Of a stretch of 64,000 bases of DNA, positions 6,564 to 58,127 are shown in pieces (positions within the stretch are counted from its first letter, which is position 1; the number at the start of each line of letters is the position of its first letter). The translations under genes were made by a program, and so were the position numbers. Under the pieces are notes generated by a model, which saw only the letters and a list, made by a program, of their open reading frames with translations, ran no database searches and was not told the origin of the DNA. The DNA lies in the NCBI RefSeq assembly GCF_022201045.2, contig NC_068561.1, positions 22,450,501 to 22,514,500 on the forward strand, written 5' to 3'. The stretch comes from Citrus sinensis (lineage: Eukaryota; Streptophyta; Magnoliopsida; Sapindales; Rutaceae).

Positions 6564-8496
6564 TTAAGCCTTCTGTGTTTCCATGGCTGTCATGGATTTC
6601 TTTGGAATTGGAACACTGATAGTCACTGCCGGCTTATTGGTCTCGCTTTCAATCTTTTGCAGTTGGGTATGATTATTAGCTTCAATGTCATCAATTATTG
6701 CTAAAGTGTGTCCATGTTCTCCACAGCTTTTAATGGGTTCAGGAATTGTCTCTATTTTATTTTCTTCGTATTCTTTGTATTTCCCCCATAGCACGGCGTA
6801 GAGTCCAATGACTATCACAACTGCCCCAAGAGCACTGAAAATTAAACCACAAGCAAAACAAATGAGTTAGTGGCACTACTTTTTTTATACGATTATTCGT
6901 TTTTAATAAGTAAAACTAAAAAAAATAAAAATAAAAATAGATTTCATTGAATAATTACCCTCCAACATATATCTTTTCAGCAAGAATGAAAGAGCCCATA
7001 ATTGCAACAATGATCATCATCAGAGGGCTGAAAGCGGTTACAAAGACAGGTCCTCTTTTTTGCATCACCAGCCCTTGAACATAGTAAGCAATGCCTGATG
7101 ACACAATACCCTGTACATAAAATTAAAAATAGAAAAAGAAAAGAAAAAGAAAACGTAAATATCAATTATAATATATATTAAGTAAATTATTTAAAGCATA
7201 AAAAGAGAGTGAAGAGGGAAAGAGAGAGAGAGAGAGAGAGACTCACAGCATAAGCAGCAGCAAGAAGATTCATGTCCCAACCAATTGTCCAAACAGAAGC
7301 TTTGTGTTCCATCACAAAAGTAACAGCAATAGATTGTAAAGTTCCAAGAAAACACACAATGGCTGTGAGTGAGAGGTGAGCTGGGTACCTCCTCATTGTC
7401 ACTGCCTGTAGTAAAAATATATAAACCAACAAATTAAAGTTAATCAAATTCATGAACGTACTACAAAATCACAAGTCATAAAATAATTAACTACTTTCAA
7501 GAATCTTTAATTAGATAGTTAGCTACCTGAAGAATAAAGAATGAAGCCCAAGCAAGAGTAGCCAAGATTAAAAGAATTGAACCCTTAAGCCAGTCTTTGT
7601 CCGAAGAAGTAGTTGCCGCAGGGACAGGTGAGGATGTATGACTGTGGATGTGCTGAGACCAAACCAAATTAATGACATTACCTTTATATATTGTCATCAA
7701 CATGGCTCCAGCCACAGTCACTATAGTTCCCACCATTTTTGCTTGGCATCTAATTTTCTTTATCTCCACTTTCTCCATCCTTCATTTTAAGAATAGTACC
7801 AAAAAAAAAAAAAATCAATCTTTTTGTCCAAGTTAATATAAATGGCATCAATATGAGATAAGGATTATGATGACTTTAGTTACCTGCAAAGAACTGCCAT
7901 GACAAATGTCATTGCAGGTAGCATGTTACTCATGGCACAGGAGAAAGTCGGCGACGTGAACTTTAAGCCGGCGTAGTAGAAGTTTTGATCAATCACAGGC
8001 CTATGTAAAGATCAAAAATGAAAAATAAATAAATAAACGAATTAATGTATCTTAAGCTTGATGGCAGTCTTCATCATGTACTGTGGAGATATGCAAAGAA
8101 ACTAACCCAAGAAGGCCAAGAACAAAGAGTTGCATGAAAATGGGAAAAGTTATCTTTGGCCTCACTTTCCTGTATGTATAACAAAACCAACCAAAAATAA
8201 ATAAAAATAAAATGAAGTAATATATATATTTGAAACTGTAATAACTGAAAAATTTTAATATCTCAAGCAAGATGATGGTATTAATTAAAGTACCTCTCAA
8301 GAAGGAGAGCGAAAGGGGCGATGACTGCGGTAGCAAAGGCATGACGATACACAACAAGAACGTAGTGGCTCATTCCCCTATTGAGGGAAACCTTGGTGAT
8401 GATGTTCATTCCGGCATAGCCAAATTGCAGTGATATCATAGCAATATAAGGCTTGCACCTTTGAAGAAAATTGCCACAACATCCTTTTCCCTCCAT
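6564..8496 (-). CDS. WAT1-related protein (nodulin MtN21/EamA-like transporter, UMAMIT family)
   Basis: Seven exons, all with GT-AG introns and consistent phases: 8496-8294, 8169-8107, 8000-7884, 7779-7527, 7405-7247, 7110-6959 and 6834-6564, giving 405 aa. The start (MEGKGCCGNF) is followed by the family's hallmark N-terminus (QFGYAGMNIITKVSLNRGMS). Later landmarks are GPVIDQNFYYAGLKFTSPTF, the first EamA repeat, AGAMLMTIYKG, WDMNLLAAAYAG, and the second EamA repeat ending GLYAVLWGKYKE. A hydrophilic tail of about 70 residues follows. Family members are ten-helix membrane proteins; those studied export amino acids or move auxin across plasma or vacuolar membranes. The sequence most resembles the At5g07050 (UMAMIT9-like) subgroup, recalled from memory. 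Substrate cannot be read from sequence. All exons are open. A decayed duplicate lies at 37904-40397. Intron 5 holds a (GA)n run at 7220-7241. Confidence 0.9.
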
Positions 8497-8618
8497 TTTT
8501 TTTTGTGGGGGGAACAATTAATTTGTGTTTGAGGAAAATTAAAGGAAGTGATAAGTGTAAGAGGAAGAACACTTGAATGTGCTTGTGTCTCCTAAGTGAC
8601 AATGGTTACAAGGTCACG

Positions 8619-8628
8619 TATTTATAGG
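8619..8628 (-). promoter_or_regulatory. Putative TATA box of the WAT1 gene
   Basis: On the minus strand the sequence reads CTATAAATAC, about 125 bases upstream of the ATG, and an ACGT-core motif (TACGTGACC) adjoins it. Position and sequence fit a plant TATA box; no transcript data were available. This region is absent from the block B copy. Confidence 0.5.
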
Positions 8629-9320
8629 CGTGCCGGCCTGTATCTGCACAAAAGAACAGTAGTAATTTTTTATTTTTCTATTATTTTGTGTCATCGTACG
8701 TACGTGTGAAATTGAATCTCTTAGTCTCACACGTGAGTGGTAGCACTGCCTGGATCTATTTGAATATTCTGATTAGTGTTAGTGTTTCACGGGTGATGTG
8801 GGTTCCACGTGGCTGTATATAGGAAGGATTATAATGTGAGATGGGGTCCACTATGTTTTGATCTCAGTGGCAAGTGATTTGAGAGATGCCAAAACAAAGG
8901 CGATTTTGGTGCGTGATGATGCAAATTGAGGACCCTCGCTCTCCCATGCATTAACATGATGGTGGGGCCCGCTGGGAGAATTGGGCCCTTATTGCTCCGG
9001 CTTTCTCGATGCGGCGTTCCGACGCCTTGATCGGTCGGAATTCGAAGCCGACTGCATCGATCACTGCTTCAACTTTAATTAGGTGTGAGACTATATATGT
9101 ATGAAAGTATATGCATTTATCTAATGAGACATGCACAAAGCATACTTTAATGATTCCATAATTATAAGTTGCTTGTGATTAATTGTGTTATTTTTCAATA
9201 TTAGAGCCCTTATTCTAGTACTAATTTCATGCTTTTATCAGTTTACTAGATTAATCACATACATATTCGTGATTGTTACCAAACACGGAATAATTCGATT
9301 AAAAAGACTATGATTCATAT

Positions 9321-9323
<3 letters not shown>

Positions 9324-9361
<38 letters not shown>
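9324..9361. repeat. (AT)n microsatellite
   Basis: About 19 uninterrupted AT units. Confidence 0.95.
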
Positions 9362-9366
<5 letters not shown>

Positions 9367-11016
9367 ATTTTTTTTTTAAAAAAGTGTTTGTGGGACATTG
9401 GTCACTTTATCAAAGTTGGAAGCTTGCGTTATTAATTTGAAATACGGAAAAGGGAGTACTCTGTTTTTACTTTTAGTTATTATTGATACATTTATGTGGA
9501 GTAGTGCACTTTTTATGCATTAATAATTAATTTCTGAAAAGAATGCGCATCTGAGTGTTTATAAATTATTTTTGAGTGCCCACCAATATGCACAAGAAAA
9601 GGATTTGCTTTTTTTTTTTGGATTTATTGCTGAAGAGCTTATGCCAAAAATCTGTAAGTAATCTATATTTTGAATGAAATATTATTTCATATCCTAGTAG
9701 CAATATTCTTGGAATTCAATCAAAATATCCTCTTTTTTTTCCTTTTTCCGATTGAGGCTAAACGTATACATATAGATAGGACATGGAATTAATTCCTTAT
9801 GGGATAAGTTAGATATGGCGTAAGTAAAAACTTTGTAATACAGAAGATGCCTATCGGTTGATGATCACGTCATTTAATTGAATTAAAAAAGGTTCAGATA
9901 GAGGAAGAATAAAGCTCACCATTCGAAAAGACAAATCGTTTTTTCTTCTTCTATTTCATGGGTTAATTACTTATTTTAGAGGGAATACCTGCTAATTGTC
10001 CCTTTTTTGAGTTGTGATCGAATTTAGCAACTTATGCGATTATGAGAGGAAGGAATTTCAGCATTGAGACTTCTTCGGTGACATTCTTCAATAGAAGGGA
10101 CTTTGGTTAAAGATTGATTTGTTTTAATTTTTCGTGTAAATTCCAATACTTTACGGTACTCATTTTGACATATCCATTAAGCATCAGGTGGATTGATCAC
10201 GTTAATTATTCTTTTCCATTTTTTACTGAATTTCATAGTATTACAAATTTTATTAATAGAAAATTATCTCTACACCATCTCTGTTTCGTCATATGTATAT
10301 TTAATCACGATAAAATTCCCACATAATTATTGTAAACTTCCCTATAATTAAAATTAAGAAGCTTCCATATACTTAATTTAATTACAAAAATTAAATGAAT
10401 TATGAATTATAATAACAAAAAATCAACATAATAATTTTAAAATGAAATTATAATTATAAAAGATTAACATCATGGATTTTGAGATTTATTTATTTTATGA
10501 AATATTTCATGGGTATCCCTGTAACTATTATATTTTTATTTTTTAAAATTTTATATAATAAAATGGTAATTTTTTAGTTCTTTTAAGGATAAAGTGATCA
10601 TTTATTAGTGTTAAAGTGGTTGATTGATATAAGTTTAAAAACAAAACTAGTACATAGAACAAATCAAAATTTTATAATGACTAATTAAATGTACATATAA
10701 TAAAAGAAAGGTGGTTAAGAGATAATTTTCCTTTTTCAAAAATTTCCATATGTGAAAACTCAGTCTTTGCATGGACCCTGTGCCATAAGCTTTTGGATTC
10801 TAAATCCTTTTTTATTGGCTTTCAGATTTAAAAAAGATGACGCACTTGAGCTGTTCCTCTTAGGTTTGTCTGGTGAACAATTACACGCATGGCCATTCGT
10901 CACAAAAATAAAGGCTGGCTTTAAGTAATGCGACAATCGCTCTCCTGCCAAATTTTTGTTTGGCGAAAAATATAATTGGTGCTACAAGAGAGTGCGAAGA
11001 TATTAGGGAACTTCTC

Positions 11017-11042
<26 letters not shown>
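11017..11042. repeat. (CA)n microsatellite
   Basis: About 13 uninterrupted CA units. Confidence 0.95.
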
Positions 11043-11047
<5 letters not shown>

Positions 11048-12494
11048 TGCCTTTAAAATTACCTTAATGATTACCATTTATGTGCTGTTGGTACATCATA
11101 GTGTTTGTAAAATAATCCCCTATCGGTTAGAAATGAAATGCTGATTGAGTATATAATTCTCAAATCTTAAGTTGATTTTCGATTTTGAATAAATTAAATC
11201 CATAAAATCTTTTATATGCTGTATGTTGGAGCTAACTCACCTATGATTGAATGAGCTATATTGACATTTTCCTAATGAAGGACGAGACAAAAAATTATAC
11301 ACACACACTCCATTAAAATGTGACATGGACTTTTATAATATTGTAAATAAGTTTTACAATATGAAACACTTTTATAGTGTTGTAAAATTATATATGTTAC
11401 CTTTCCAAATATTTAAATTCGGGTGACTGAGGTCAAAAGAAATATATGGAAACATATGGTCACAAAAGTCTTTGATTTTAATAGTCATGGTTCCTTGTTA
11501 TCATATTTTATTTCACCCGATATTAATAATTCCACTGCATGCATGGTTCCTTTTTATATTTATATATAATATTTTTGAGGTTGTGTAATTACTGGGTATC
11601 AGGCACTCAGATGGCTTGCATTATTATAGAAATAATTAGTATCCTCGTCAATAGAAACCCTATCAGTAGACATAAATCCCAGAAGCAATCAAGAATTATT
11701 ATCTGCAGTGGGATATATATTAAATGTGTCCACTGCCAAAAGTATTTCACAAATGGATTGATTTGAGAGACCCCTTGCAAATATCTCATAGATTCTCCGG
11801 CTAACATCGCGGCATTGTTAATTGAGTATTGCTAGAGAGAGAGAAGTACGAGAGAATTTTGGTCTCTCTCTCTACCCACTCACTCTCTCTCTATCCATTT
11901 CTTCATTATTTCTCTCGTCTTTCTCTTGTCCTTCTCTACACCAAGCATTTTCCTTGTTAATTATCTGGTATTTCAAAAGCATGGAATCGATAAGACAAGC
12001 AAGGAACGTTTGTTTGTTTCAATTGCATTGCTAGGCCATTGGCACAAAGGAAATTAAAAGCCGCCGAACGCGCTTACGTTGAAGATAATAACAAGATCAC
12101 GGAGTATCACCAAAATCTGATTTTTCGTATATGTCATCTTAACTTCAGCAGAAGCAAATGCATGTCTTGATGAGAGAATACCCCACACGCTTCGTTTTCA
12201 CAATTAGTGAATTTTCTCAAAGTTTGGACGCAATAATTTAAGCTCATCACGTCGGTAAAAGTACTTAATTATTTAGGTAAAATTTGTCATTGTTAATGTT
12301 TACATGGTAACATCGTAACAATAAATATAGTACGGCTTGTTTGTAGATTCTAAAATTGTTCTGTATATGTTTATAAACCATAAACGCAGCTATAAAAATG
12401 ACTTATTTGTAACAAGTTACTCGAAAAGAAAGATATAAAATGTATTCTTCTTTTATTTTTAATTATAATTAAGCAACAATTGTTCATTTGTGAG

Positions 12495-12625
12495 TGCCAT
12501 GCTAGCTTAGCTCGTAAAATCTCTTGAATGAAACAAATAGTCTGAGGTTTGAACTCTGGTCACATAGGTGAGGAGGGAATTAGGTTGCCATTAGATTATA
12601 ATTTAATTTTTTTTTTTTACTGTAT
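12495..12625 (+). mobile_element. Possible tRNA-derived SINE remnant
   Basis: The sequence tagcttagctcgtaaaatc resembles a Pol III A box of the TAGCTYAGNNGG type. About 40 bases later gaggtttgaactctgg resembles a B box. The segment leads into a T-rich run rather than a clean A tail and no target duplication was found, so this is a weak call. Confidence 0.3.
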
Positions 12626-15067
12626 AAACTTTCATCTCCACAGCTAAGGGATTCGTTTAATACCAATGTTGGACATTTACTTAAAACTTAAAATTTTCAG
12701 TTTATTAGTTTCTTTAACATGGCATTAGAGTCAATGTCTCATATTTGATTTGCCTCATTTTTGTGAGTGAGCTCTTTGTCTTTTGGCCTATTTAATTTTT
12801 CGAGCGCTCTTGTCTCAGATCACTTTTCATTGAGAGGATTTATTGAAATATCTCTGATTTCTTGACTATCAATTTTAAGCTTTTTTGATATAGTAATTTG
12901 CTAATAGCCATAATACCTGACGTGGGACTTGTAGTGTTATTAACGTTAAGAATCTTACAGTAAATGTTATCCTTATGCACTTAATCCACAAAGTAATGAA
13001 AGGTGAAATTTGATCAAGTGCAATGAAAGCCATTGCAATATCTTCCGGTTATATTTAATCTCCGTTGAAATGGATGTTGCCAAGCAGGGGTTCGCTAGTT
13101 ATTGCTAACGCCACCTCTCAACTTTATTGGGGCCCCAAAAATAGTATCGGTCAAAATTCAGATGCAACAAATTGCTTCATTCGACGAAACCGCGAAAAAA
13201 AAAATTATAATGCCATTCGTCTTTTTTTATTTAATCATTAAATTTACTTTTCCCACATCAGAATTCAGCAAGGAGAAATCAAAGAGCAGCTTATATTTTG
13301 CGAATTTATATTACAAGTGGAGCACCAGAAACCAAATGGGCATCTAATCACCTCCCAATCATCGCGGCATTGTCAAGTCGTGCAACGTAAGAAGGACATA
13401 TCGCAATGAGTCCAACTAAGAATGGTCTGTTCAATTTCCTTCTTGGTGAAATGATGATTGACGTTTTGGACCCATCAAGAAAATGCAAGCCCGCCAGTAA
13501 ACTAATGGATGCAAATAAAAGAATGTAAAGGAGACACGATGAGTTGGAGTGTGCCCATTGCCCTAATCCTACACTGTGAAAAGATGTGATCGGGTACTCT
13601 TTAAAGAGTATAGTGGCAAGAAGCTTGATACTAAGTGCTGGGAATTTTGAGGCAGTTCCAAGAGGCAGGAACGAGTGCTTGTCGATCATATATATCTTTT
13701 GTGTTGATCCTTTTAACATTAATCAGATTTTTTCTATTATTTTCCATAGATAGCTAGGGTTTCTTTGAGAGTAGGGTTTGGCTGCATCTGCATGTCTGCG
13801 TCTGTATTGGATGCGTTTATGTGTGTGATTCCACTAGGAGAGTTTTGGTTCAATCTGGCTAATGATAGAGGCGAATAGGTGATGGGTCAAGGCTAAGGGG
13901 ACATCCATTTTTCCACTTGTTTTTAATTAAATATCTTCTTTTCTCTGTCGGTTTCTCAGGTGAAGTTGGGGTAGGTACCGTAGGTTTATGGGTGCTCACA
14001 ACTGTGTATTCAGAAAAGGGGGAAATAAATTTTAAAAGTTAACCTCTCTAGGCTCTTGTTGGAGTGCTTTGTTCTAAACTCTCTTGGGTTACAAAATTAT
14101 GAAAGACATCAAAGTTACATATTAATCAGGGATTTTTTCAATATTTACATTATTATACACCATAATGATCATAAGAGCGTGATAATTCTTGCTGTATATG
14201 AAAGATATTATGATCTTTATCATTTTAGCTCATAATATTATTGTTTGTCTTAATCTAAGAAGTTTTTTAAAATCATCATGTAGAGAATTTTTAAAATCTT
14301 ATGTGATTTTCCACCCGGAACTATAATCTTATAATTTACTTTTATGCAAATAATGGGTAAGAATGAATGATCATTTCTCGTTTACAAATCTCTCTCATTC
14401 CGTGAGGTTCACACTAGGAACAAAAATCTCTTTGTGAATAATACTAGAAGACCATGAAAATGTATTCTAAGTTTTTAAATATATTTATTTTCTGAAAATA
14501 ACCAATTCCAAGAACATTAATTTTGGTTCTGTGCATGACAGCCGATGTAAATGTTTCATATTTTTTTTTGGGTCAAAAGAAAAAAAAGGTGTGCCAATAT
14601 TAATATATGCGAAATACTTGCTTTTTTTTAGAAGAAACAAATAAATAGCTGAATCCCACATTCCCACAGGCCCATTTGCACTCGTGCACTAAAACTCGTC
14701 ACACTTGTAAACTTTTATTTATGTATATAAACATCAAACCACAACGTGTTTGAGTGACGGATTAATTAATTTCCTCCGGTTCACGACGTGATAGAACAAT
14801 AGAGACCGTACTTTTTCTCATCTTCAATTTGCACTTTAATTTGTTTCTTTTAGGACAATTAAAATACTATAATTTTAACCCATCACAGCATCGATTTTTG
14901 TTTTCTGCTAAACATCCAAAATGCAAAAGTCTTTGCTTCTTCTTTATCATTAGTCCTTTGACTCTCGATTTGCATGTACATCTTTGAGCCTTTGACTGAT
15001 TGTCGATAAATCATGCTAACAAAACCCTAGCGTGTCAATCCCTTAGCAAGAAACCTAATGCACTTCA

Positions 15068-15068
<1 letters not shown>

Positions 15069-15104
<36 letters not shown>
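15069..15104. repeat. (AT)n microsatellite
   Basis: About 18 uninterrupted AT units. Confidence 0.95.
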
Positions 15105-15108
<4 letters not shown>

Positions 15109-18100
15109 ACATCAATATCTTTTATTTTACTTTTAAATTAATTGAAAGCAACAATTCTTTGATATAGGCTTATATTATATAATTGCATGCATAAGTGATA
15201 GCACGGTTTCAAAAGTTTTGGTCAAAGATTCATCTTTCTCATAATGTTTATTGGGAATCTTTTGTACTGATTAATTCAAGTGGGTTCTTTATAAGACCTT
15301 TGCTTTGCTTGTGATCTCTAGCTATCGAAAACAGATGATGAACAAGTTACACTTATGCATGCTTTTACTTTTGCCCTTTTTTTCTTTTCCCCAAAGCCCT
15401 TTTTTAAAAAAAAAAAAAAAATTAAAACAGTGTTACAAGTCCCAAAAAGTTGGCTAATTGATATAGCCTATAAAGAAGCAGGTTTGAAGATGATTATAGC
15501 TTTATCAATAACTTTTTTGGAGCTGTTGGTCTGTCATATTGTATTATTTGATGGCCACATTTGTTTTCTCCTCATTTATATGATTGTTTCGCGAATGGAA
15601 TTTATTTTATTTTATCATAAAGTCGAAAGAAAAGGAAAATCATACGTAAGTTAGACCAAAATAGTGTAGATTCATTATTTTCTTCAATTAACTATAGTTA
15701 ATCACTTACATTTTGGTCTTGGATTCAAATGCTAAAAGCCGAAAGACTATGGGATACGTGACGAGGATAACTCGTGTCAATAATATATCAGTTGGCTATG
15801 ATCAGTTTAGCCAGAATTGAATTCATTAATTACTTCTCATTTTGTTTTATTTTTTGTGTTAATTAACTGTTGGTTGTAGATGAGAATCCATGCTTTCGTT
15901 TTAATTTGAAGGGCATGAAATATAAAGAGTGGTTAAGGATGATTTTTTTTTTTAAGCAAAAAATGATGTATTAGTTTACTATAAAAGCTTCACTGCATTA
16001 GGCCATATTGTATGTACTGAAAGTTCAAAGTGCCTACGCCCTACAGGCAGCATTTATAAGAAATTGTTAGTTTTTCCTTGCTAAAATCAACATATATCAT
16101 TTACTCCACTCTATTTTCATAATAGTCAATAATCCTTATGTCAATATAATTTTACAGTATTATTTTTATTTTTAAATAGATTCTTATTCATATTTATTAT
16201 AAATTAAATAAATAATATAAATGAAAATAAAAAATAAAAATTAAGTACTAAAAATAAGAAAATATATTTCAATGTGAATAAAAATTAATAATAGTATTTT
16301 TTGTAATTTTTATTTTTTAAATATTTTTATAATAAATATATTTTATATTTTCAAGATAAATTATCAAGTACTATTTACCACTCTTTTTCTTTAAAATTTT
16401 TATGCTTTTTTTAATATTATAAAAATAGCAGAAAATAAGTGGTAGATATTGATTTCTGTAGGGAGAAATTTGACAGTCTCCCTAACTTTTACAAGAGTAA
16501 GATTATTTTTTTACTTTGAAATTTGATAATCAAATAAATCAAGGAATAAGAATTGAATTCTTACTAACAAGAAAATGAAGAACAAGAAGACTTTAATAAC
16601 TTAGTGAAGCTTTTATAAGCTTAAATGATCCGATGAAAAACAAGCACCATGAACCATTTTTATATTTTTTTTTAAAATCAACATTTAAGGATCACAAATG
16701 CTTTTAAACAAATGATCTCAATCATATATCGTATCGATTGAAATAAAAAAGTTTTTAAAAAATTATAATGGGATATTGATATTAATTTATTTGCCGAGGA
16801 AGAGCCATAATCACCTTACAAAATAAGTCACACGTTTAACGACATGAAGTTTAAACATTATTAAAAGTCATACATTTAACCGAGGTTCATTCAAAAGAGA
16901 AAAAAAAATCTGTAATTAAAATATATACTATTCTAGTTTAATTAGGAAGGCTACAAATCACACTATTGTACGGAATCTTCTTTCTAAACATGGTGCTGAG
17001 TGTCAACATTCAATCACGAATTAATCATTCAAAAACAAATCTCGTCAACTTCTCACCAACGAATTAGACCAAATAATTAGTCCCTTTTTTTTCTTTTTTT
17101 GAGGAAAAAAATAGTCAATTACAAGAGTAAAAATAATATTTTATTTTTTTATAATAAATTGTCTATTCAAGATTTTTTTTCATCAAATTCAACTTTCTTT
17201 CACCAAATAATTAATATACAAAAGACTTTTGTTCGAAATTCAGTCTTTACTTCTTGAATTACACAGCTTATTTCAGTTCAAGATCAATAGAACCGATCTT
17301 AAGTTTTAATAAGTAATAATAAATTGATCCTTTATTATTTTTACAATATTAACTAAAAAGATAATGATGATGAAAAGGCTTTTTTTTTTTTAATTGTTCT
17401 GGAGAATCACATTACTTTGTTTACCAAATTGCCAATGCTTTATCGTTTCATTATCACCGGCAACGACTACCACTTAAAAGATGAAAAAGAATTTTCAATT
17501 TGCTGCATTTTTTATTTTGTCAAGTCATTCACAGACAAGACACAGCGTTTGAGTTAATCAATTTGGATTGTGTTGGTCAGATTTATCTTCTTAACATTAT
17601 CTCAATTTGTATCTTCAGTTACCTCAAATCTAGCTCGACTCGACTGTCCTCGAATACTAACGAAACGGAAACGTTGTCGGATTTACTAATAGGAGAAATT
17701 AGGTTTCTGTATAATGATAAGTCTTGTTGAAAGTTTGAATGAATGATACTAGGGTTTTCAGCTTTTTTTTTATAACAAGTTTAAATGTCGCGAATTTACC
17801 AAAATAAGTAAATTTGAAATATAATATCATAATTAAATTCTCTTAATCAAAATAAGAAAAGGAAAACAAACAACACTCAATTTTGAATTAAAAAAAAGAT
17901 AAAAAAAATTAGAAAAATTAGGAAAAATCTTTAAAATAGAAAACAATCAGGAAAAAATAGAATTTTTAGCTCGGCCACGGGGCAGAACTGCGTAGATAGT
18001 ACTAGGTTTTGTTCGTTTCGTCGTAAGCTTTGAAACGGTATGTTATATGCTAAAAACGTATACTTGTATTTCAAGTTATGACCTCCGGAAAGTATACTGC

Positions 18101-19225
18101 TCGCAACACACAACACTCTACATCAAACACACATTTATGACCATGGAATTTAAGTTTACATAATAATAAAGAAGAAAAATTAATATTTAATTAATAAGAT
18201 TTATATTTATAGACACATATAACACAGTATACATAAAATATGCCCTCATTTGCTCAAAAGATGACCGTTTGATTCACTAAGCAATTAATGTCCTTGTCGG
18301 GGCTCAAAATGATGAATAAATTAAACCATAACAATGACAATTTATCACTAAATTGATTCACCCATTGACAAAATGTTGATGAGCACGATATCTTTTGTCT
18401 ACTTTACTTTTAGGTTTAACGTTCTAACAAATTGTCAACTATAGATGCTATGGAGAAGTAATTATGGTAATAATTCAGAGTCTTTATATATTTAAAATTT
18501 AATCTTCCTCCATTCCTCAGTTATTCCAAATGAGAAGACAAAGAAAAGCACATGATGATAACAAAAGCAAGATAAGTTGTGCACGTCTAGTTCATATCGG
18601 AAATATAAAGTGAATTAATTAGACATTTGTATCGAGTCGAACCACCAAAAATTATACAGTGTAGATGTTGCATGCGTCTTTCAAAGACCAATAACTTCAA
18701 TTCCTTCTGAAAAAGAAGTAAGCTAATGTCTAAGAAAGTGGAATCTACACAACAGTATATTCACATACATTGTTCAAGATTTTAGTGGTTATTGGCCATT
18801 AATTATTATAAGAAAGAAAGAAGTTCTATGGATAGCAATTTTACGTGTATTGCACATAAAAAAGATCTTTAGATAATATTGGAACACACGTTATATCACC
18901 TTTTTATTACATTTTTAAAAACAAGTGCCTAATTATTTTGTGGACTGAAGGGTTACCCAATGTGTGTATTTTTCATCTCCAATTGTGTTAATCGTATCTT
19001 TTTAAGATGGAGCTAAAGCAAAAGTTTTCACCATTTTTATCGTTTACTTTTTCAGCCACCACAATAGCGGCCACGATTTTCTGCATCCCCACTTTGACGT
19101 GCTGACCAAATCGCGCACTAAGGAAATATGTCAATTAAATCAATGTTCAATTTCTGTTTTTATGAACATATGGATACTTTTGTTTTGCTTGATGATGAAA
19201 GAATAAAGGTTCAATGAATTTTATA

Positions 19226-44796: not shown

Positions 44797-44841
44797 TTAA
44801 AGCCTGAAAAAAAAATTAAAAAACTCTTCTGAGCGGAGTAA

Positions 44842-45589: not shown

Positions 45590-45734
45590 TAAGTTGTCCT
45601 CAATTTTGCTACTTACCAAAAATGTTTTTCTTTCAATATGCAAAAATGTATTATGAATCTAATTGTGAAGTATCTAAAGTGTTATCTAAATTTCTAATTC
45701 ATTTCTCAATCTCTAAATTGAATATAATTATAAA

Positions 45735-46397: not shown

Positions 46398-46652
46398 ATT
46401 ACAAATAGTGATGACTATTTATAGCCAATGAAACATATCAATTAATCGTGCATTTAGCGATATACTTTTCGAATCTCAATGCATTTTGAATTGATTAGTC
46501 TGTTGCATAACTCCCAATATATTTCAAGGGATGTGATACACACACCACAGATTGTATAATTACATTTAGAAAGTTCATTAATGTAAAACACACATTATTT
46601 TTATCAAGTCCTAAACAGACATATCTCATAATAGAACAACATTAAACAAAAA

Positions 46653-46818
46653 ATAATGATATAGTCACAAATTTTTGTACAAATTGATGTGGCATGATAA
46701 AATTGGTTAAATTAAATATATCTTACCCCACATGATTTATTTATATTATTTTATATTTTCATTCAACCAATGAATTAATAGCACACCAATTTATATAAGA
46801 GTTTGTAACTATATCATC
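46653..46818. mobile_element. Small palindromic MITE, block B copy
   Basis: Counterpart of 25211-25376, with the same complementary arms (atgatatagtcacaaattttt / agagtttgtaactatatcat). Confidence 0.6.
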
Positions 46819-47074
46819 GCTATTAAATAAATACTCTCTGCATACAAGTACAACAAAGGATTCCAGATACCGTATCTAACAAATGCTTCTTTTTCTTAAC
46901 AAAGTACTCGTACCAACCAAACGGTATCAATAATTTAATATCGAGATACTTCAAAAGAAAAACAGTGCGTACCCCCACTAATGATCTCCGCCTCCACTTC
47001 ACCAATACAAATCCTTAACGTAACTTTGACATTTATTCAAATTTAAAGAATATTTGTTAAAATATTTCAAAGGA

Positions 47075-48817: not shown

Positions 48818-48872
48818 AGCTAGATTCAAGCTACTGAGATATTTGTTTTTCTCTATATTTCGTCGTGTATGC

Positions 48873-48880
48873 ATATATAG
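48873..48880 (-). promoter_or_regulatory. Putative TATA box, CYP94 block B gene 1
   Basis: The minus strand reads CTATATATGC, about 60 bases upstream of the ATG, identical to the block A copy. About 200 bases of 5' flank are almost unchanged between the two copies. Confidence 0.45.
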
Positions 48881-49790
48881 ACATACGAGAAATTCTGGAA
48901 TACGCACATAGTAGCAGAAAAAAATTGACAAAATAAATAAAATAACGACATGTCTACATTAAGATAAAATTATGTCAGTCTACTTGATCTTGTAGTCGGA
49001 ATATTTTTTGTTTTAAATTTTTTTTCAAATTTGGTGTTCATATATCATTTTTATTAATTATGTCAGTCTAATTTGACTATTAATTTGTTTCCCAAAAAAA
49101 ATTGTTGAATTTTTTCCCTTTATTTATTTTTCTCTATCCAAATTTAGATTTGGGGGTGATTATTAGGAAATTTAAATTGTTAATGTGGTTTTCTTTCTGG
49201 ACATGAAGTTTTTAAATTTAATATTAGAAATGACAAATAGTGAAATGGCTTTTTGTAAAAGATGTATAGTTGTGTCATCATAAGAAGAAATTCTTGAATA
49301 TATTATAAGTACTACACCCAATTAATATATGTATGACATGTGTAGTTCAAATGTCCAATTGTATATAACTACCAATTACATGGTGATTATGCACACATAG
49401 TAGAGCTCGAGGATACATATGTAATTAATTAGGTATAGCATCTCTCATATGCTCTACAATCTCTCTATCATAAGAGCTAAATCAGGCTATAGCTAATTTG
49501 AAAGAGAATCATAGTAGAGTTCGAGGATAAATGAGTATGATTTGTGTAGGTTTTGTGTAGTAACTTTTGAAGAGTCCTATAAGAGCACTGGTTTCTCCTT
49601 ATTGAACTTTATCATTGTGTTTTAATTGCTTATAACGAACTAATTTTATAGGTAGCAGGGACAGAGCCCCACAAAGACGAGAATTTCATTTTCACCTAGT
49701 TTTTCCATCGTGGTTTTTCATGAAACTAACGATCGTTTCTAAGGGTGACTTCTATTGCATATAACACAAAGGGATATTTCACGTTTGCTT

Positions 49791-49812
49791 CCCCCCCCCC
49801 CCCCCCCCCCCC
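49791..49812. repeat. 22-base poly-C tract
   Basis: Uninterrupted run of 22 C residues at the left edge of a B-specific insertion, the only long C run in the window. Its true length may be uncertain because such runs are error-prone in sequencing. Confidence 0.9.
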
Positions 49813-50470
49813 AACGATTTTTTTCCTTTGATTTCTCCACTATCTCAGTTGGGTTTCGAGAACTTTCACGCTAAGCTTGTAGTGAAATGTGCTTTATATT
49901 AGTTTTCTTTTCTTTTACTAATTCTTATTTCTTAGGCTTCTAACGAACACGCTATCAGTTGTATATAGAAAGTGCCGTTATATTTTTTAGTTCTTCAATG
50001 ACAGTAATCACTCGAACAAACTTCTCAATGATGCTAATTAATATATTCTCTAATCCATTATCATGGAACTCTTATATCCCATGCAATTTTCATGGCGATA
50101 GCTCCATTGATTCACTAAATAAATCTTCATCAGACAATAGATATTGCTTGTTGAAGGATGAATGCTTTTGTTCATAGCTTTATGTTGATTATCACTCAAT
50201 TTTGTTAGAGAAAACGACTTCTGGAGTGTTAGTGTCGAGTTCGACTATCCCTTAATTACAAATATATTTTGAGATTGAATAAGGACGTTGTTATTTTCTT
50301 AACTGAAAATGTTATGATTACAAAAGATGAATACTAGCTTAATTATTTACATTGTGCATAAAGCACTGGGAAGAGTTGTTACCAATCTAGCACTTGGTTT
50401 ACACTTGCCTAAAAAGAACGAAGGCAGAAGCCAAATGCTTTTGCATAGAGTTGCTACTTTGGCTAGAGAT

Positions 50471-50835
50471 TAAGTGCCTGTTTGGTATGGCTTATTTAAG
50501 AGCCATAAGAGCTTATTTAATCGTATAAGCACTTTTTAAAAAATTTTATAGTGTTTGGTTATTTTTTAGTAGAGTTTTTTTAGCTTAAATAAGCTAATTT
50601 ACCTCTACTAGCAAAAGCCCAAAATTTGAGCTTTTGGGAGTAGAGGTTATAAAGCTTTTCTAAAAATATATAATATAAAAAATATCACACAGTTTAATGG
50701 TTCAAAAGTGCGTTTTTTATTGACAACCAAACACCCAATGACTTTTTGTCCAAAAGCTCTATTGGTATAAGCTCTACTGCTATAAGCTCTACTATTATAA
50801 GCTCTATTTAATAAGTTGTACCAAACGGAGCCTAA
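50471..50835. mobile_element. MITE with 'gtttggta' termini
   Basis: The left end (taagtgcctgtttggtat) and the reverse complement of the right end (ttaggctccgtttggtac) match closely and are followed by further complementary sequence (ggcttattt / aacttatta). Near the right end ataagctctact is repeated several times at 15-base spacing. End type resembles Tourist/PIF-like or related MITEs; superfamily uncertain. Confidence 0.6.
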
Positions 50836-51749
50836 AACTCCACTGGCCTTTGATTTTGGTTGATGCCGCCACAAACAATTGTAGAATTAAAGATATTATT
50901 GATTCTACAAAGCCTAAATGATGACATTATATTTGAATGGATGATTGTAATTAAATTGAAGCCAAAAAACAAAGTTTTGAATGGAGTAATGTTCTCCTCT
51001 TTCCTGAGTTTGATTGTACTTTTTATATAAAAACACTGATCATTCAAATAAGAAAGGACTTAAGTCGACTAGGTGATCCACAATTGATGAAGAGAAACGG
51101 AATTAAATTAAGAAAAAGACACTCAAGAGAACTGCACATTTTCTCTCAGCATAACATTTTTATGCTGAAATGAGGCCTTTAATAGTCATGTTATGTTAGA
51201 AATTTAGAACCAATTGTTGACAGTGGGAATCTGAAAAAAAAGGAATGAGATATTGGAAGAGGAAATTAACTTTTGCCTGAAAAATCTTGGTTGCTCTCAG
51301 TATATATTTATCCAATTGATGAGAATTTTTTCATGTGTTTTTAAACTTATATATTGGCTAAGAAGCATTGTGCGTTAAGAATCTGCGAATGAGAGAGTGT
51401 ACACTAGATGACTAGAAGTAAAGTTATCAACTTACTATTATTTTGTCAAGTCACATAATTTAATACATTTTTAATAGTTTTATATCTATTTACATAGATT
51501 TATACAAGGTAATCAGTATTATGATAAAACCTCGTCTTTTCGTATTGCGTCCCTATAATTGGCCCGTGGCGATAGATATATAAAATAGATTTATATTTGT
51601 AATGCATGAGTGAGTTTCTCTAATAAGGGATCCTGCACTTTAATTTATTAAAGTTCGAGATGAACTTTTACAATATTATAAACAAGTTTTATAATGTTGT
51701 AACCTGATTATTTCTATCTAATACATTAAGCAGCCAAGAGGCCGTAGCA

Positions 51750-52186
51750 TCAAACAAGAAATTCTGAATGAGGTTTCGAATTGGCTATGAGTTTTTTATG
51801 AAGTCTGCTCCACTCAACGATGAATTCATTAATGGGGTTGCTACTCGGGACATAGTAATTGTGAGCAAGCTGTGTGGAGTGATAAACCCTTTGTTGACTT
51901 GACCGTTGATGACTTTCCTTTTGGTAATCTTGGTCAGCTTGCTTAACAAATTGATCCAAACAGTAGCTTAACGGTTCGGCTTTTGATCCCACAAAGGAAT
52001 GGTATTCTTCCAGGAAAATATAAGCTGTCCCTTCTCCTTTATTTCCATTTTGGCTGCTTTTGCATTCTCCTTCATTTCCACTTTGGCTGCTTTTGCATAG
52101 GCCGTCCTGATTCTGTCCAATTTAATTTCTGTTCGGTTTCACAAGTTATGTGTGTGCTGAGGCTTAACTATTGTAGAAATCCTTAG
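51750..52186 (-). pseudogene. Unidentified coding-like remnant, block B copy
   Basis: Minus-strand open frames encode AYAKAAKVEMKENAKAAKME, then in another frame GSKAEPLSYCLDQFVKQADQ and later NEFIVEWSRLHKKLIANSKP. A 92-base segment (51861-51952), absent from block A, has ends gtgagcaagctg and cagcttgcttaac that are inverted copies and is bounded by aatt on both sides. No family recognised; it could be a decayed gene end or a retroelement piece. Confidence 0.3.
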
Positions 52187-52675
52187 TGACTACATGTACT
52201 TTCGGTATCTACCAGGTGATAACTGGTAACATTTTGGTCTTTTCGAGTGATCACGTCACTCAAAAAGGGGTGATCACAAATTTGCACTACCAACTTGAAA
52301 CTTCTGAATGTCTCATAGTTTTATGTCAATATTACTTGTAAATCATTGTTGCATGTCTCAGAGGCTAAAAGTCAAGTTCCAGCGAGTTTGATAATGACGA
52401 AGGTAGAAAAACACCTTCTTAATTACCCACTAACTTGTCAATAGTCACAAAAGCTTCAAGTCAAAAAAAGAAGCTTATGGATTCTAGACATTGAATGGTT
52501 AATACTTAATCGGTGAGATTCAATTTTGTGTGGTTGTGAAAGACCGTTTTAAAATTAATTATTCATTGAAAAGTAATAATGAGACTGCTCATTGATAATT
52601 AGTTAAATGTACGCTTAGCAATCAAAACTAAATAATTTGACCGGAGGAAATTCCAGCTAATGTTAAGTCTACTTC

Positions 52676-53661
52676 TAGGGATGGCAAAAATCCCCACGGG
52701 GATGGGTACCCTCGGGGATTTTCCCCATTCGGGGAGGGTACGGGGATAATTTTATACCCAATTTTTTTTTCGGGGAGGGGACGGGGAAAATTTTTTACCC
52801 AACTTTTTATTCGGGGAGGGGACGGGGATGAGGTGGAATCCCCATCCCCTACCCATTTCCCCATTTTAATTTTTAATTTTATTTTTATTTTTAAAATTAC
52901 TAATAAATAAATAACAAAATTATAAATATTGTTAAAAATAATAAATATCAAAATAGTTGTATGTTGGGAAAGTGGTCACCCTTTGCCGGGAATTAGTTGA
53001 AGAGTATTAATTGAAGTTTTCACCAACTGTTTATTGCTTTGATTATACTGGTAGTAGTTCTTCTACTAGATCTACAGGGGATTCTTATAAGAAAGCAACC
53101 AAATGGATGACAGGTTTTAATGATTATGTAAACAATGGAGATTGTGCAGTTGTTGCAGATGAATTAGATTCATATTTGGATGAGAAAGTTATATCTCGGA
53201 TGGAAGATTTTAATATTTTGAGTTGGTGGAAGACAAATGCTAATAGGTATCCTACATTAGCTCGAATTGCTAGAGATATTTTGGCAATTCCAATTACAAC
53301 AGTTGCTTCTGAATCAGCTTTTAACACTAGTGGTAGAGTTGTGAGCTCATACCATAACAAACTTCATCCAAGCACATTGGAGGCCTTAATGTGCTGTCAA
53401 AGTTGGTTACGAGCTTACAATAGCGGTATGAGTTTATTTTAATATGATTAATTTAAAATCGAAAATAAAAAATGTATTAGACTATTAATTATTCGGGGAC
53501 CGGGGACCCTCGGGGATCCCCTGTTATTATTCGGGGAGGGGATGGGGATTCTCTCAAGCAATTTTGACGGGGACGGGGAGGGGACGGGGACATATGCAAA
53601 ACATCGGGGATGGGTATGGGGAGATTGGTCCCCTCCCCTCCCCTCCCCATTGCCATCCCTA
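52676..53661 (+). mobile_element. hAT element (986 bp) with exact 8-bp target duplication
   Basis: The termini are perfect 12-base inverted repeats, tagggatggcaa and ttgccatcccta, and the 8-bp duplication is tctacttc at 52668-52675 and 53662-53669. The unfilled site is in block A at about 29735-29750. Both subterminal regions are packed with 'ggggacgggga/cggggagg' runs (C-rich at the right end). The interior keeps only the last part of a hAT transposase (53011-53442), so the element is an internally deleted, non-autonomous derivative. Confidence 0.95.
53011..53442 (+). pseudogene. hAT transposase C-terminal fragment (dimerisation domain)
   Basis: A 143-codon open frame whose second half reads EDFNILSWWKTNANRYPTLA, then ILAIPITTVASESAFNTSGR and HPSTLEALMCCQSWL. 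This is the canonical hAT dimerisation domain, in contrast to the eroded version in the gene at 21.6-24.1 kb. The upstream catalytic and BED regions are gone. The true start is upstream and lost; the first in-frame ATG is arbitrary. Confidence 0.9.
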
Positions 53662-54458
53662 TCTACTTCTTTAAGTGTTTAATCAAAGTTTTTGTGCTAA
53701 AAAAAAAAAAAGAATGATTCAAAACTGTAAAATCCAAATAATAGATTAGTCCATAGCCCGACGGACCCAAATTTAAAAAATAAATTAAAATCAAAATGTC
53801 CGATATCAATTATTTGAATAGGAACTTCACCTAACGTGCGTTAAGTGTGGTGTGTGGTGGCGAGCTTTGATTGGAAGAATCATGTGGTAGGATTCAATGC
53901 TCCAATGAAATTCGACACGAGTGCCGTCACACCGTAACATACACAACCGGTGCGCACTAGATTAGTTCCTTATCAAAATATTCAAATAACGAAGATCATT
54001 AATTACTATAGTTCCATTCGGAGGCGTTGATTAGAAAATTAATTTAAAATAATAAGAACGAAATAAAAATGCGAGTGCGCCTTACATATGGACAATTTTG
54101 TATTACCGTGGCGAATTTATGAAGTGAGTGATGATAGAAGTATAAAACTCTTATACTAAATAAATTTGTACAAATTGATATTACTTTAAATTCATCGAAT
54201 AGAAAAAAAATGTAAAATAATAAAAATTAAATCACTTAAACTAAAAATTATTTTATTCCAAATAATTAATTATGTAGTCTGATTTAATAGGAGTATGGGG
54301 CATGTATCTATTGCATTTCAGCATTTACATAGAGCAATACAGTACAGGTACGTGTACTGCAATTAAGCAGCGACGTCTGCAAAACTTACATACGACAAAA
54401 ACAGAAGACATATCATTAATAATTGAATTTAACATCTGGAAACTCGTGAAGGCGAATC

Positions 54459-55973
54459 TCAATCCACGGCACCCGGACATCTTTCCCTCACTCTCACGTG
54501 CAATCCATCTTTAATTCTGAGTGTCAAAGATAATACCTTCTCCGGACACGTGTCCTTGTGTTGTACGTCAACCACAAACCTCTCAATCACAGACGCTGCT
54601 ATTGATTTCATCTGAATGTAAGCCATATCTTTCCCAAGACACATCCTCGGCCCGGCGTGAAAAACCGGAAACCGAAACACATTTTCCGGCCGATAAATTC
54701 CGTCCTCCAGCCACCTTTCCGGCAAATATTCATTGCAATTCTCTCCCCATATGCTCTCCATCCGCCCCATTGCATATGCATGATAAGTAACAAACCAATC
54801 CTTTCCGACAAATGTACCGTCTGGCAAGACATCGTCGTTCCGGCAAGCTTTCGAGTCGACCGGAACCGGCGGGTACAGCCTCAACGTCTCCGATAGCGCT
54901 GCATGCAAATAATGCATGTCTCGCAACTCCTCGAAACTGTAGGTAGCGCCAACGCTTCTCCCATTTCGGGCCCGAATCGATTCAAGCTCCTTTAAAATAT
55001 TTTGCTCAACCTTGGGATGGGATGCTAATAGCCAAAAGAACCAACTCAAAGCCGAAGAAGTAGTGTCACGTCCAGCCAGGATAAAGCTAATCACGATATC
55101 TCGGAGAAATTCGGTTGAGTTCTTCCCGTTTCCGATAAACCGCGACAGCAAATCGTCTTCCATATTCTCCGTTTTTTCTTCCATTCTTGAACGTATAATG
55201 TTATTTGCAAATTCATGAACTATTGCAATTGAATTCTTTAGCTTTCGCTCTGATCCGATGTCAAAGAACTTCTTGACACTCCACATATGCCTGAAAGCGT
55301 ATCGGAATCTCCCCGAACTAAGCGTTGCAGCATCTTCAAAAGCCCGCATAAACTCTGAACCAGCAGTTCCGTCGCCGCCGAGACAACCGGGATCGAAGTT
55401 AAATGCCACTTTACAAATATTATCAAACGCATAACGTTCCAAAATATCTTGTAAATCCAACGCCAGTCCGGTCCTGGACGCTTTTGTGAGAATCGGAACT
55501 AACCTCGATAGAGTCTCGAACCTAACGCTGTCCATCACGAAATTTCGGAGCGATTTTGTGTTGAACTCGTAGCTAGCCGTTTTCCTCTGTACTTTCCATA
55601 ACTCGCCATCGGAGTTAAAGATTCCTCGGCCGAGAAAATCTTCGAGAAGGGTAACGAAGCGTTGACCTTTTGGGTAGTTCTCGAAGTTGGTCTTGAGTAT
55701 GTGTTCGACGTTTGCAGGGTTTGCCGTGATGACGCCGTGAATTTTGCCGGGGCGGTAAAAGATGGCCGTGCCCGTGGGGCAGTGTTTAAGGATTTCGGTG
55801 CTCCAGTCGAGGAAGCGGTGGCGGTTTCTCAAGTATCCGGGCAAGGATCCGACGACAGGGTAATGTTTAAAGCCGACAGCAGGTCTTTTGTATGAAGTAA
55901 AAAAGCACAAGTAGAGGTAAAGAGAGAGGAGGGAGATGAAAATGAAAGATTGAAGAGAGAGGAGCATTTCCAT
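54459..55973 (-). CDS. CYP94: Cytochrome P450 CYP94 family (CYP94D-like), block B gene 2
   Basis: Intronless, 504 aa from the ATG at 55973 (MEMLLSLQSFIF), the same length as its partner at 30739-32253. It has the N-terminal anchor, the canonical I-helix AGRDTTSS, K-helix SETLRLYPPVP, PERW and the heme loop FHAGPRMCLG (Cys about 445), ending RERCPGAVD. Every P450 landmark is present, so of the four copies this is the best candidate for full activity. The family role is omega-oxidation of fatty acids or jasmonoyl-isoleucine at the ER; the specific substrate is unknown. The first P450 of the block lies upstream on the plus map, in the same orientation. Differences from the partner are scattered single residues such as RPGKIHG for SPGEIHS. 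Confidence 0.9.
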   Translation of the reverse strand: MEMLLSLQSFIFISLLSLYLYLCFFTSYKRPAVGFKHYPVVGSLPGYLRNRHRFLDWSTEILKHCPTGTAIFYRPGKIHGVITANPANVEHILKTNFENYPKGQRFVTLLEDFLGRGIFNSDGELWKVQRKTASYEFNTKSLRNFVMDSVRFETLSRLVPILTKASRTGLALDLQDILERYAFDNICKVAFNFDPGCLGGDGTAGSEFMRAFEDAATLSSGRFRYAFRHMWSVKKFFDIGSERKLKNSIAIVHEFANNIIRSRMEEKTENMEDDLLSRFIGNGKNSTEFLRDIVISFILAGRDTTSSALSWFFWLLASHPKVEQNILKELESIRARNGRSVGATYSFEELRDMHYLHAALSETLRLYPPVPVDSKACRNDDVLPDGTFVGKDWFVTYHAYAMGRMESIWGENCNEYLPERWLEDGIYRPENVFRFPVFHAGPRMCLGKDMAYIQMKSIAASVIERFVVDVQHKDTCPEKVLSLTLRIKDGLHVRVRERCPGAVD

Positions 55974-56025
55974 AGCTAGAATCAAGCTACGGAGATAAGG
56001 ATCTCTCTTATCTCGGTGATCAAGA

Positions 56026-56042
56026 TATAAATAAATATATAG
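56026..56042 (-). promoter_or_regulatory. Putative TATA region, CYP94 block B gene 2
   Basis: The minus strand reads CTATATATTTATTTATAT about 55-70 bases upstream of the ATG. It replaces the shorter CTATAAATATC of the block A partner, so the core promoters differ by a small insertion. Confidence 0.4.
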
Positions 56043-58127
56043 AAAAAAAATGAAAAGAGGCTATAGGGGTTATTTTAAGGTGCTGTAAAATGTTATACGC
56101 ACGTGTATTGGACGAGAATACGAAGAGATGACGATAGCTTGTGTTGTGCACGAATTATTGGCTGTTTGCTTCGAAGGGAAATGAAAATGATATAAAATTT
56201 AAAAAATTTGATCAGCGCTTAACACAAATTTAACCTAGCATCATTGTATTAACACATAAAAAAAAATTAAAAAATTCAATTTTTGTCCTAAATTTCATTT
56301 CCAATATTATGACGTGATGTGTCATTAAATTTGTTGATAACTTTTCATATGTTTTAAATGAATGAATTATATCTTTTCCATCGAAGTCTTAAAAGAGTGG
56401 TCTTCAAATAACTTCATCCAACTTAATTTTGACTTTTTTCACCTGCGTCCTTTTACAAAATAATAGAATCATAAAACTACATTTTCTCACCATTGAATTC
56501 CTTAATAAATAATATATTAATTGAGATAAAATTTTGAGATATATAACGCTTGGTCAAGTAGGCAATCCCTTTTTGAAATAGAGGATAAGATTTCTATTGC
56601 TAAGGAAGTTAGATTTTGGATTCAAATGTCAAATCACTGGAATTAATAGGGAAAATGTTATATGAATAGAAGTAAGATCGAAACGACAATACTATAGTAT
56701 AAATAATACTATCATTTCATATGTGATAGTATTATTGTAATATAAACAATATTCATATTTTTATTTTCTTACTGTCTTAAGGCCAATTTAGAATTAAAGT
56801 GGCTAATTAAAAAAGTTACTTCTACAGTGCATATGAAATAAACTGTTGATTAAAAAAATAATTTGGTGTTTGACAAATTGTGTTGTTGGAGTTGTTGTGA
56901 GTTAAAAAAGCAGTGTACATACATTTGGTAAATTTTATTATAATTGTTTTTTATATAGTAATCAAAATAGACATCAGTTTAAATTATCTTTATTTTTTAG
57001 AGTATGTTTAATAATATTTAGACATGTCTTTTTCTTTTTAAAACACATAAAATTAAATAAAGTGAAAAAAACTCAATTAAATAAAATTTAATGAAATTCA
57101 TACATAAAATGTGTTAAAAATTCATATTAATACATAATTCAAATAAAATAAAAATGTAATGTGTATTACATTTACAGTAAACTTTTCTCAAATAAACACC
57201 ATGACTAAAGAAAAAATATAAATAGAATGAAAGATAAAAGTCATTATTAACATTAATGTGAAATTGTTCATAATTTAAAGAAAACTTACGTGATCATATG
57301 TAAGCCTTATTGAATGTTATAATGAAAAATAAAAGTAAAATATAAAAAACATGAACTTGTTGAATCAAAACTTTGATATTAGAGAGAAAATACAGAAATT
57401 GTGGTGATAATTTGATTGTGATGGTAATGTGATATCTATTAGCTTATACATTAGAGTGTATGGAAAAATAAGATATAATTATATTTTTGTTTAAATATTA
57501 AAACTATGATAGGAATTTTAAAAAGATATGGTGACATTTTAACAAATTATTTATAACAAACTGCTTATTACATAATGTTTAACCTAATCCGAAACGGAAG
57601 CTTACTGGTGCTATTCAAATAACAATGTTCAGTAACTGTTTAGGATAATAGATTTTTTTTTCATTAAATTACATGACTGTTGAATTAGTAAGCAGTTGCA
57701 ATTTTGCAGAGCCGAACAGATAAAAATAATGGAAGGCGGGGGTGGGTTGTGCTAGTAATGCTTGATTGGCTACACATTAAAACTTCATCTGGATGATGCA
57801 TTAAATTATTCGGCTTATACATTTCTATTAACTGTTAAGAACGATTAAAAGTTGATACAGTTTAAGGGGAAGGACATTCCCCCTAATCCCATACAGGAAA
57901 ATGTTACCGAAAAGTAATAGCATCTTCATAGTTGAAAAAGGTTTACAATGTACATCAACTGGTAGACTACAACTGATAATTTATTTTAGGTTCCCCTACA
58001 CCAAGGCTCAAAAATTTGCCCACTCTACCATACTTTCTGAGATTTTATGACAATACAATCAATAGTTTACATACGCACACCTGGGTAAGATTACTTTTGA
58101 GAGGTGAAATCAATTCTCCTTTTGAGT
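56043..58127. other. End of block B and unique spacer before the UBP gene
   Basis: 56146-56600 is the single-copy counterpart of the native part of the 1.19-kb array unit, and 56600-57106 matches 36660-37183. After 57106 the sequence has no match elsewhere in the window and no gene is seen up to the UBP stop codon at 58128. Confidence 0.6.

Follow-up and report, generated by a model that had tools for sequence, protein, structure and literature searches.

Gene conversion between plant duplicates is a known general process, which leaves local tracts of near-zero divergence inside older duplicates. In the part of PMC2686159 available to us, the maize p1/p2 locus is presented as a case of genes amplified in tandem, in which complex filler DNA and gene conversion both play a part, and the rearrangement joint of the p2/p1 gene holds 50 bp of filler drawn from two sites nearby. 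At the 3' region of maize P1-rr and P1-rw1077, the accessible part of PMC3014980 describes break repair with nearby filler, followed by a 1,269-bp tandem duplication. In this study, we analyzed a 64,000-nucleotide stretch of Citrus sinensis DNA (contig NC_068561.1, positions 22,450,501 to 22,514,500; hereafter the window), in which a block consisting of a WAT1-type gene, a hAT-like gene, two cytochrome P450 genes (P450-a and P450-b) and a spacer occurs twice, with a patchwork filler at the joint and a mosaic of divergence between the copies.

The locus resembles maize p1/p2, which shares the tandem duplicates, the filler matching two nearby sites and a proposed homogenization by recombination or conversion (PMC2686159, same part). 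However, the maize filler sits in a chimeric gene formed with a deletion, whereas here the filler lies at the joint of a multigene block of ~30 kb and amounts to ~170 bp. The 1,269-bp duplication of the P1-rr / P1-rw1077 3' region is comparable with the 1185-bp array found in one of our blocks, but the extra DNA consists of Mutator-like element fragments in maize (PMC3014980, same part) and of sequence resembling contig C9 here (97%, 715 bp). In contrast with conversion between plant duplicates in general, one intergenic tract at this locus is long and perfect enough for its ends to be placed. A narrow literature search joining CYP94, WAT1 and tandem found no paper, which is not proof of absence.

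The duplicated block and its junction

The initial annotation had read the order of WAT1, hAT-derived gene, two P450 genes and spacer twice, head to tail. This was confirmed by self-BLAST and a chained alignment, in which block 1 and block 2 (Table 1) formed a collinear chain of direct repeats with the same gene order and strands (WAT1 minus, hAT-like plus, P450-a and P450-b minus, then the spacer) and 94.35% identity over 14,962 aligned columns. Block 1 measures 30.5 kb and block 2 19.2 kb, a gap mainly due to a 10.75-kb stretch and a tandem array that are both present in block 1 only. The junction had been placed at 37184, which was right to 1 bp: the homology reaching 57107 in block 2 stops at 37185 in block 1. 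On the other hand, the WAT1 stop codon ends at the proposed left limit of 6564, and the homology actually starts 104 bp further right, at 6668, within WAT1 exon 7, where it pairs with 37902. Likewise, the second block is indeed a head-to-tail copy, but it begins only after 716 bp of filler and an inserted miniature inverted-repeat transposable element (MITE). The introns were said to match, and the WAT1 exon-intron structure does agree, with five internal exons paired and equal in length in both copies. The promoters match in P450-a (the 855 bp upstream have a divergence K of 0.036) and, as judged by alignment, in P450-b. Those of WAT1 do not: block 2 has neither the 5' end of this gene nor the DNA upstream of it. 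As for the intergenic MITEs said to match, we detected three inverted-repeat pairs of at least 25 bp in three block 1 regions, at best candidate MITEs; two (25206-25381 and 30268-30340) lie in DNA common to block 2, but the third (30557-30697) lies mostly in DNA absent there.

Further copies were sought in the whole assembly (299.7 Mb, 11 contigs). Among the candidates scored, no other close P450 was present (next 49% identical; 85 of 377 scored), the four P450s being each other's sole close relatives, and neither was another close hAT-like gene (next 44%; 76 of 1,042) or WAT1 gene (next on contig C5, 49-71% by exon; 103 of 233). The WAT1 search missed the short WAT1 piece at the junction, which means that fragments can escape it, and the flanks were therefore compared directly with the WAT1 protein and gene. 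This comparison, which does detect the junction piece, gave no match in 1-6563, 57108-64000, L002 or L003. No block sequence was found in the 10 kb beyond the window on either side, L002 matching only window 1-511. That segment has a 97.8% direct copy of 511 bp at L002:6287-6797, 3.7 kb leftward and outside the duplicated block.

The relative age of the copies was assessed from synonymous divergence (Ks), which was 0.42-0.46 between the two P450s in four cross comparisons, versus 0.017 for P450-a and 0.046 for P450-b between blocks. The same P450 is 95-96% identical across blocks, and the two P450s within one block 84-85%. The earlier claim that the P450 pair predates the block copy thus holds, provided that its letters A and B are taken as blocks and its numbers 1 and 2 as genes. 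Our results support the view that the multigene block was duplicated in tandem when the P450 pair already existed.

The 716 bp between 37185 and 37902 allowed the joining to be examined. The MITE (548 bp) interrupts a piece of WAT1 exon 3 and intron, and its dispersed copies share either of its ends (113 matches, with 40 of 201 candidates scored). When it is set aside, ~170 bp remain, which read as a piece like 7858-7960 and then a piece like 2692-2758; WAT1 exon 7 follows. Both pieces are oriented like their look-alikes and match them at 90-93%, near the divergence of the blocks themselves, and a genome search with the second piece found only two places, its own site and 2692. Of the sites that distinguish the two WAT1 copies, the WAT1 piece has the copy 1 base at two adjacent ones and the copy 2 base at one, a mixed pattern that is consistent with copying near the time of duplication. 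The 8-base word ATGATTAT occurs at 6669 and, on the two edges of the filler, at 37185 and 37903, and may represent microhomology; switch points inside the filler overlap by ~0-2 bases by eye. Comparison of the left and right edges gave nothing beyond weak AT-rich matches. The filler has look-alikes at more than one site in the vicinity, whereas homologous repeats at both unit ends, the mark of non-allelic homologous recombination, were not found. A two-piece filler of this kind fits crossing-over between repeats less well than it does template switching or break repair. Close to the look-alike of the second piece, 3104-4376 forms an imperfect palindrome (outer inverted repeat 74%, inner ~71%), perhaps a foldback element.

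The divergence mosaic

Windowed identity between the blocks ranged from ~0.86 to 1.00, apart from a poorly aligned zone (down to 0.70 near 20127-20878), and included two long identical runs free of gaps. The 644-bp run (48374-49017 in block 2) covers the 5' part of P450-a and its upstream sequence, and the 485-bp run (52107-52591 in block 2) lies between the P450s in surroundings that are 8.7% divergent. Permutations were performed over 14,678 columns, 284 of the 14,962 (20100-20760, poorly aligned) being dropped here as well as from the K upstream of the hAT-like gene. The longest identical run in 10,000 permutations was 289 bp, and when columns were permuted only inside the divergence segment of each run, none of 10,000 permutations reached 644 or 485 bp (maxima 518 and 250, respectively). 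Identity tracts inside these diverged duplicates thus exceed the length expected by chance. The 485-bp run had no differences, compared with 145 in the 1,667 surrounding columns (Fisher p = 3.5e-17, a nominal value since the tract was chosen post hoc; the flank rate omits 683 columns at 29060-29743, with 10 differences). In the genome, 29016-29743 matched only the two block copies and one weak place (70%), and without another good match it is not a young transposon.

A similar contrast appeared inside the hAT-like gene, whose Ks was 0.157 in the 5' part (14 synonymous changes in 98.7 sites) and 0.007 in the last 241 codons (1 in 150; p = 1.4e-5, the split chosen post hoc). Together, these patterns suggest later ectopic gene conversion between the blocks, the simplest account of the mosaic. 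For the 3' half of the hAT-like gene, the divergence contrast is the sole support, with no exceptional identical run, and we regard it as no more than a possible conversion tract.

Several results weigh against conversion. Within the P450-a region alone, the 644-bp run was reached in 3 of 10,000 permutations, and it is a weaker case than the 485-bp run owing to the low divergence of that region itself. Segmentation gave three segments (K 0.073, 0.026 and 0.061; breaks at 23177 and 27751), of which the middle one, 23177-27750, was of low divergence; the 485-bp run did not emerge as a segment of its own. In the hAT-like gene, identical runs measure at most 156 bp, a length that is unexceptional overall (1,527 of 10,000 permutations) and that 130 of 10,000 attain when only the gene is permuted. 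The Ks of P450-a was barely below that of P450-b and WAT1 combined (5 in 305 versus 24 in 542 sites, p = 0.03). In addition, no outgroup polarises any change, and over-polishing of near-identical paralogues during assembly could also yield identical tracts.

The two copies had been expected to provide an internal clock. This did not hold: block-to-block Ks spans 0.007-0.157, both extremes within the hAT-like gene, and exchange after duplication, which best explains this spread and the identical runs, spoils such a clock. We therefore rejected the use of the two copies as a simple clock. K reached 0.079 in the DNA preceding the hAT-like gene, 0.093 between the P450s when the identical tract is excluded, and 0.090 for the spacer; it was not uniformly high outside the identical tracts, however, being 0.046 at 24105-25620 (from the hAT-like gene to P450-a), 0.036 upstream of P450-a and 0.055 for WAT1 with introns. 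With the rates of 2.81e-9 (synonymous) and 5.62e-9 (non-coding) borrowed from kiwifruit, as given in the available part of PMC6466647, Ks 0.045 and K 0.0925 would each correspond to about 8 million years, if these rates suit Citrus.

Differences between the two blocks

The genes have decayed unevenly. The block 2 copies of WAT1 and of the hAT-like gene are broken, P450-a shows damage in block 1 and alterations in block 2, and both copies of P450-b have open frames. The first WAT1 copy matched Pfam EamA in two stretches (90.8 bits, cut-off 28.2); the provisional label WAT1-type combines this match with the name given by the initial annotation. Between the WAT1 copies, Ks was 0.045 and nonsynonymous divergence (Ka) 0.027 (984 comparable coding bases). 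Copy 2 would never have possessed the normal C-terminus, unless the edge was shifted by a deletion at some later time. The solo-long-terminal-repeat-like insertion in its exon 1 has dispersed relatives (117 matches, with 40 of 256 candidates scored). A 192-bp tandem repeat immediately preceding the hAT-like gene is present in three copies in block 1 (21855-22433) and two in block 2 (42739-43127).

Pfam found the P450 domain. The CYP94 name, taken from the initial annotation, is putative, and the heme loop presumably resembles that of CYP94; NCBIfam gave only models far below their cut-offs, and searches of solved structures only distant P450s. P450-a copy 1 is changed at alignment columns 405 (G to W) and 420 (P to Q), and copy 2 at columns 369 (Y to C) and 370 (P to A). 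Copy 2 also carries near its stop codon a repeat that we take to be a short interspersed nuclear element (SINE) from its box A/B likeness, and its frame stays open and gains ~80 residues of repeat-derived tail (47075-47313). When polarised against P450-a, P450-b showed 18 nonsynonymous and 4 synonymous changes in copy 1, and 9 and 8 in copy 2; the corresponding numbers for P450-a were 6 and 3, and 7 and 0. The Ka/Ks of P450-a between blocks (0.76) gave no sign of strong constraint.

Filled and empty sites had been proposed for every later event. They were indeed found for several insertions (Table 1), but not for two large differences, the 10.75-kb stretch and the array. The 10.75 kb is more likely to have been lost from block 2 than gained by block 1. 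A transposon insertion in block 1 is disfavored, as the stretch holds the WAT1 copy 1 start codon and a TATA-like box, and the C5 relative aligns from WAT1 residue 1, which is a further point against it. A genome search with the whole stretch (39 of 1,545 candidates scored) failed to list its own place, and its misses carry no weight. Whether each large difference was a gain or a loss is what we infer in this way.

The array has a unit of 1185 bp and mixes spacer with sequence also found on contig C9. Its 460-bp part is spacer, single copy in block 2. Its 725-bp part matches C9:5022839-5023553 (97% over 715 bp) and adjoins the spacer on its left side through a run of A; with one full-length match and partial relatives on C9, a source on either C6 or C9 is possible. 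A break repaired with distant DNA and then amplified locally would yield such an array. The 460-bp unit was also considered as the long terminal repeat of a small retrotransposon and rejected: it is found at this locus only, besides three weak matches of ~100 bp (73-75%), its ends are not of that type by eye, and the 725-bp piece has a full-length C9 match.

Another difference, 49791-50999 (1,209 bp, in block 2 only), contains a high-copy element at its positions 676-1046. This element, 50466-50836 in the window, has many genome copies of 95-97% (40 of 706 candidates scored). To the right of block 2, open reading frames resembling exons of a ubiquitin-specific protease occupy 58585-63992 on the minus strand; Pfam UCH matched 63492-63992 only, and 60536-60907 had no match.

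Table 1. Features of the duplicated locus, in window coordinates
Feature	Position	Strand	Description
Block 1, homologous interval	6668..37185		self-BLAST and chained alignment to 37902-57107
Block 2, homologous interval	37902..57107		self-BLAST and chained alignment to block 1
WAT1-type copy 1	6564..8496	-	EamA transporter, 405 aa, 7 exons in spliced reading, open
WAT1-type copy 2	37902..40397	-	no start codon or upstream DNA; 3' end truncated and different; solo-LTR-like insertion divides exon 1
hAT-like gene copy 1	22431..24107	+	open frame; zf-BED, hAT RNase-H-like and hAT dimerisation domains
hAT-like gene copy 2	43168..44796	+	broken: one TGA and one TAG within match
P450-a copy 1	25643..27133	-	apparent frameshift near C-terminus (by eye against copy 2)
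P450-a copy 2	47075..48817	-	last residues replaced by tail from SINE-like insertion
P450-b copy 1	30739..32253	-	open
P450-b copy 2	54459..55973	-	open
Junction filler	37186..37901	+	WAT1 exon 3/intron piece, MITE within, then piece matching 2692-2758
hAT-like MITE inside filler, 548 bp	37253..37800		CTCATG on both sides; dispersed copies share either end
Source-like sequence of filler piece 1	7858..7960	+	90.3% over 103 columns (MITE omitted)
Source-like sequence of filler piece 2	2692..2758	+	93% over 67 bp
Identical run, 644 bp	26690..27333		P450-a 5' part and upstream
Identical run, 485 bp	29175..29659		between the P450s
Block-1-only stretch, 10.75 kb	8474..19229		absent from block 2, more likely by loss
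Block-1 array	32642..37185	+	[~460 bp spacer + ~725 bp C9-like] three times, then 460 bp and single tail
Solo-LTR-like insertion, 693 bp	39627..40319		TG...CA ends; 5-bp duplication GTGAT; empty site in block 1
SINE-like insertion in P450-a copy 2	47094..47313		A-rich end; between two 16-bp copies of AAGAAGGGTTACGTCT; filled/empty site
hAT-like element, block 2 only	52676..53661		8-bp duplication TCTACTTC; dimerisation-domain fragment; filled/empty site
Palindromic MITE-like insertion, block 2 only	44841..45590		TAA on both sides; filled/empty site
SINE-like insertion, block 1 only	32363..32578		imperfect ~10-bp duplication (by eye); filled/empty site

History of the locus

We consider it likely that the locus as a whole reflects a single illegitimate tandem duplication with templated filler, followed by divergence and ectopic conversion. 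A segment of ~30 kb, with the WAT1-type gene, the hAT-like gene, the two tandem P450s and the spacer, would have been duplicated once by illegitimate recombination. Its right end would have been joined to a point in WAT1 exon 7 through filler taken from WAT1 exon 3 and 2692-2758, either by end joining with templated filler or by replicative template switching. The copies would then have diverged by mutation, insertion and deletion, with decay of WAT1 and the hAT-like gene in block 2 and loss of the C-terminal frame of P450-a in block 1. Ectopic gene conversion would have re-homogenized patches, namely the 485-bp tract between the P450s and the 5' part of P450-a with its upstream sequence, perhaps along with the 3' half of the hAT-like gene. 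The sequence itself shows the duplication, the filler with its look-alikes, the mosaic and the broken frames, and we infer the repair pathway and the directions of copying and conversion; overlaps of only ~0-2 bases inside the filler do not fix the pathway.

An unlikely, yet not negligible, alternative is a larger tandem duplication that started at 2692 or further left and was then trimmed, so that the 67-bp piece would be a remnant and the exon 3 piece alone true filler. The 67-bp piece is collinear with block 2, and it and 6668 are in the same order and orientation, as if a longer duplication now lacked 2759-6667; block 2 is already without another 10.75 kb. However, the exon 3 piece breaks the order (7858 precedes 2692), so that a second event is needed regardless, and two separate deletions would have to leave only ~67 and ~100 bp. 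Far less probable is unequal crossing-over between pre-existing WAT1 genes or other repeats flanking the block, although there is a WAT1 piece in the junction and the block starts inside WAT1. The flanks hold no WAT1 match, the left, junction and right edges have no extended homology, and the junction WAT1 piece is ~100 bp long with unrelated DNA around it. With neither edge homology nor WAT1 in the flanks, crossing-over between repeats is unlikely, and we ruled against flanking repeats as its substrate, the unit ends having none.

The identical tracts might instead be due to selection or to consensus errors of the assembly, which we regard as quite improbable. The 644-bp run does include coding sequence and lies in the slow P450-a region, where permutations occasionally reach it, and the tracts are known from the assembly alone. 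The 485-bp run, however, contains no tested gene, occurs only in the two blocks and stands amid 8.7% divergence, and the Ka/Ks of P450-a does not point to strong constraint. It is barely credible that the two blocks are two haplotypes placed in tandem by the assembly, even though their average divergence is ~6% and they too are known from the assembly rather than from reads. The junction carries templated filler with a MITE inside it, the flanks examined contain no further block sequence, the copies have independent insertions and broken genes, and K of 0.079-0.093 in three intergenic stretches is high for alleles.

The locus is a well-preserved example of known processes, instructive for its templated junction and for the mosaic of divergence. 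At the seam, the patch can still be read together with its likely templates, so that the mechanism can be argued from sequence. The mosaic is a warning against using block-to-block divergence as a clock, as Ks varies about twentyfold inside one gene, most likely from later exchange. The two P450 pairs, which differ in age and state of decay, offer a small test case for retention after duplication. More tentatively, and with some doubt, the spacer and junction might be a recurrent site of replicative template switching, responsible for the 30-kb duplication with its patch from two templates, the later capture of the 715-bp C9-like sequence, the 1185-bp array and ongoing conversion. If so, a single plant locus would preserve, in natural and readable form, a history of repeated template-switch repair.

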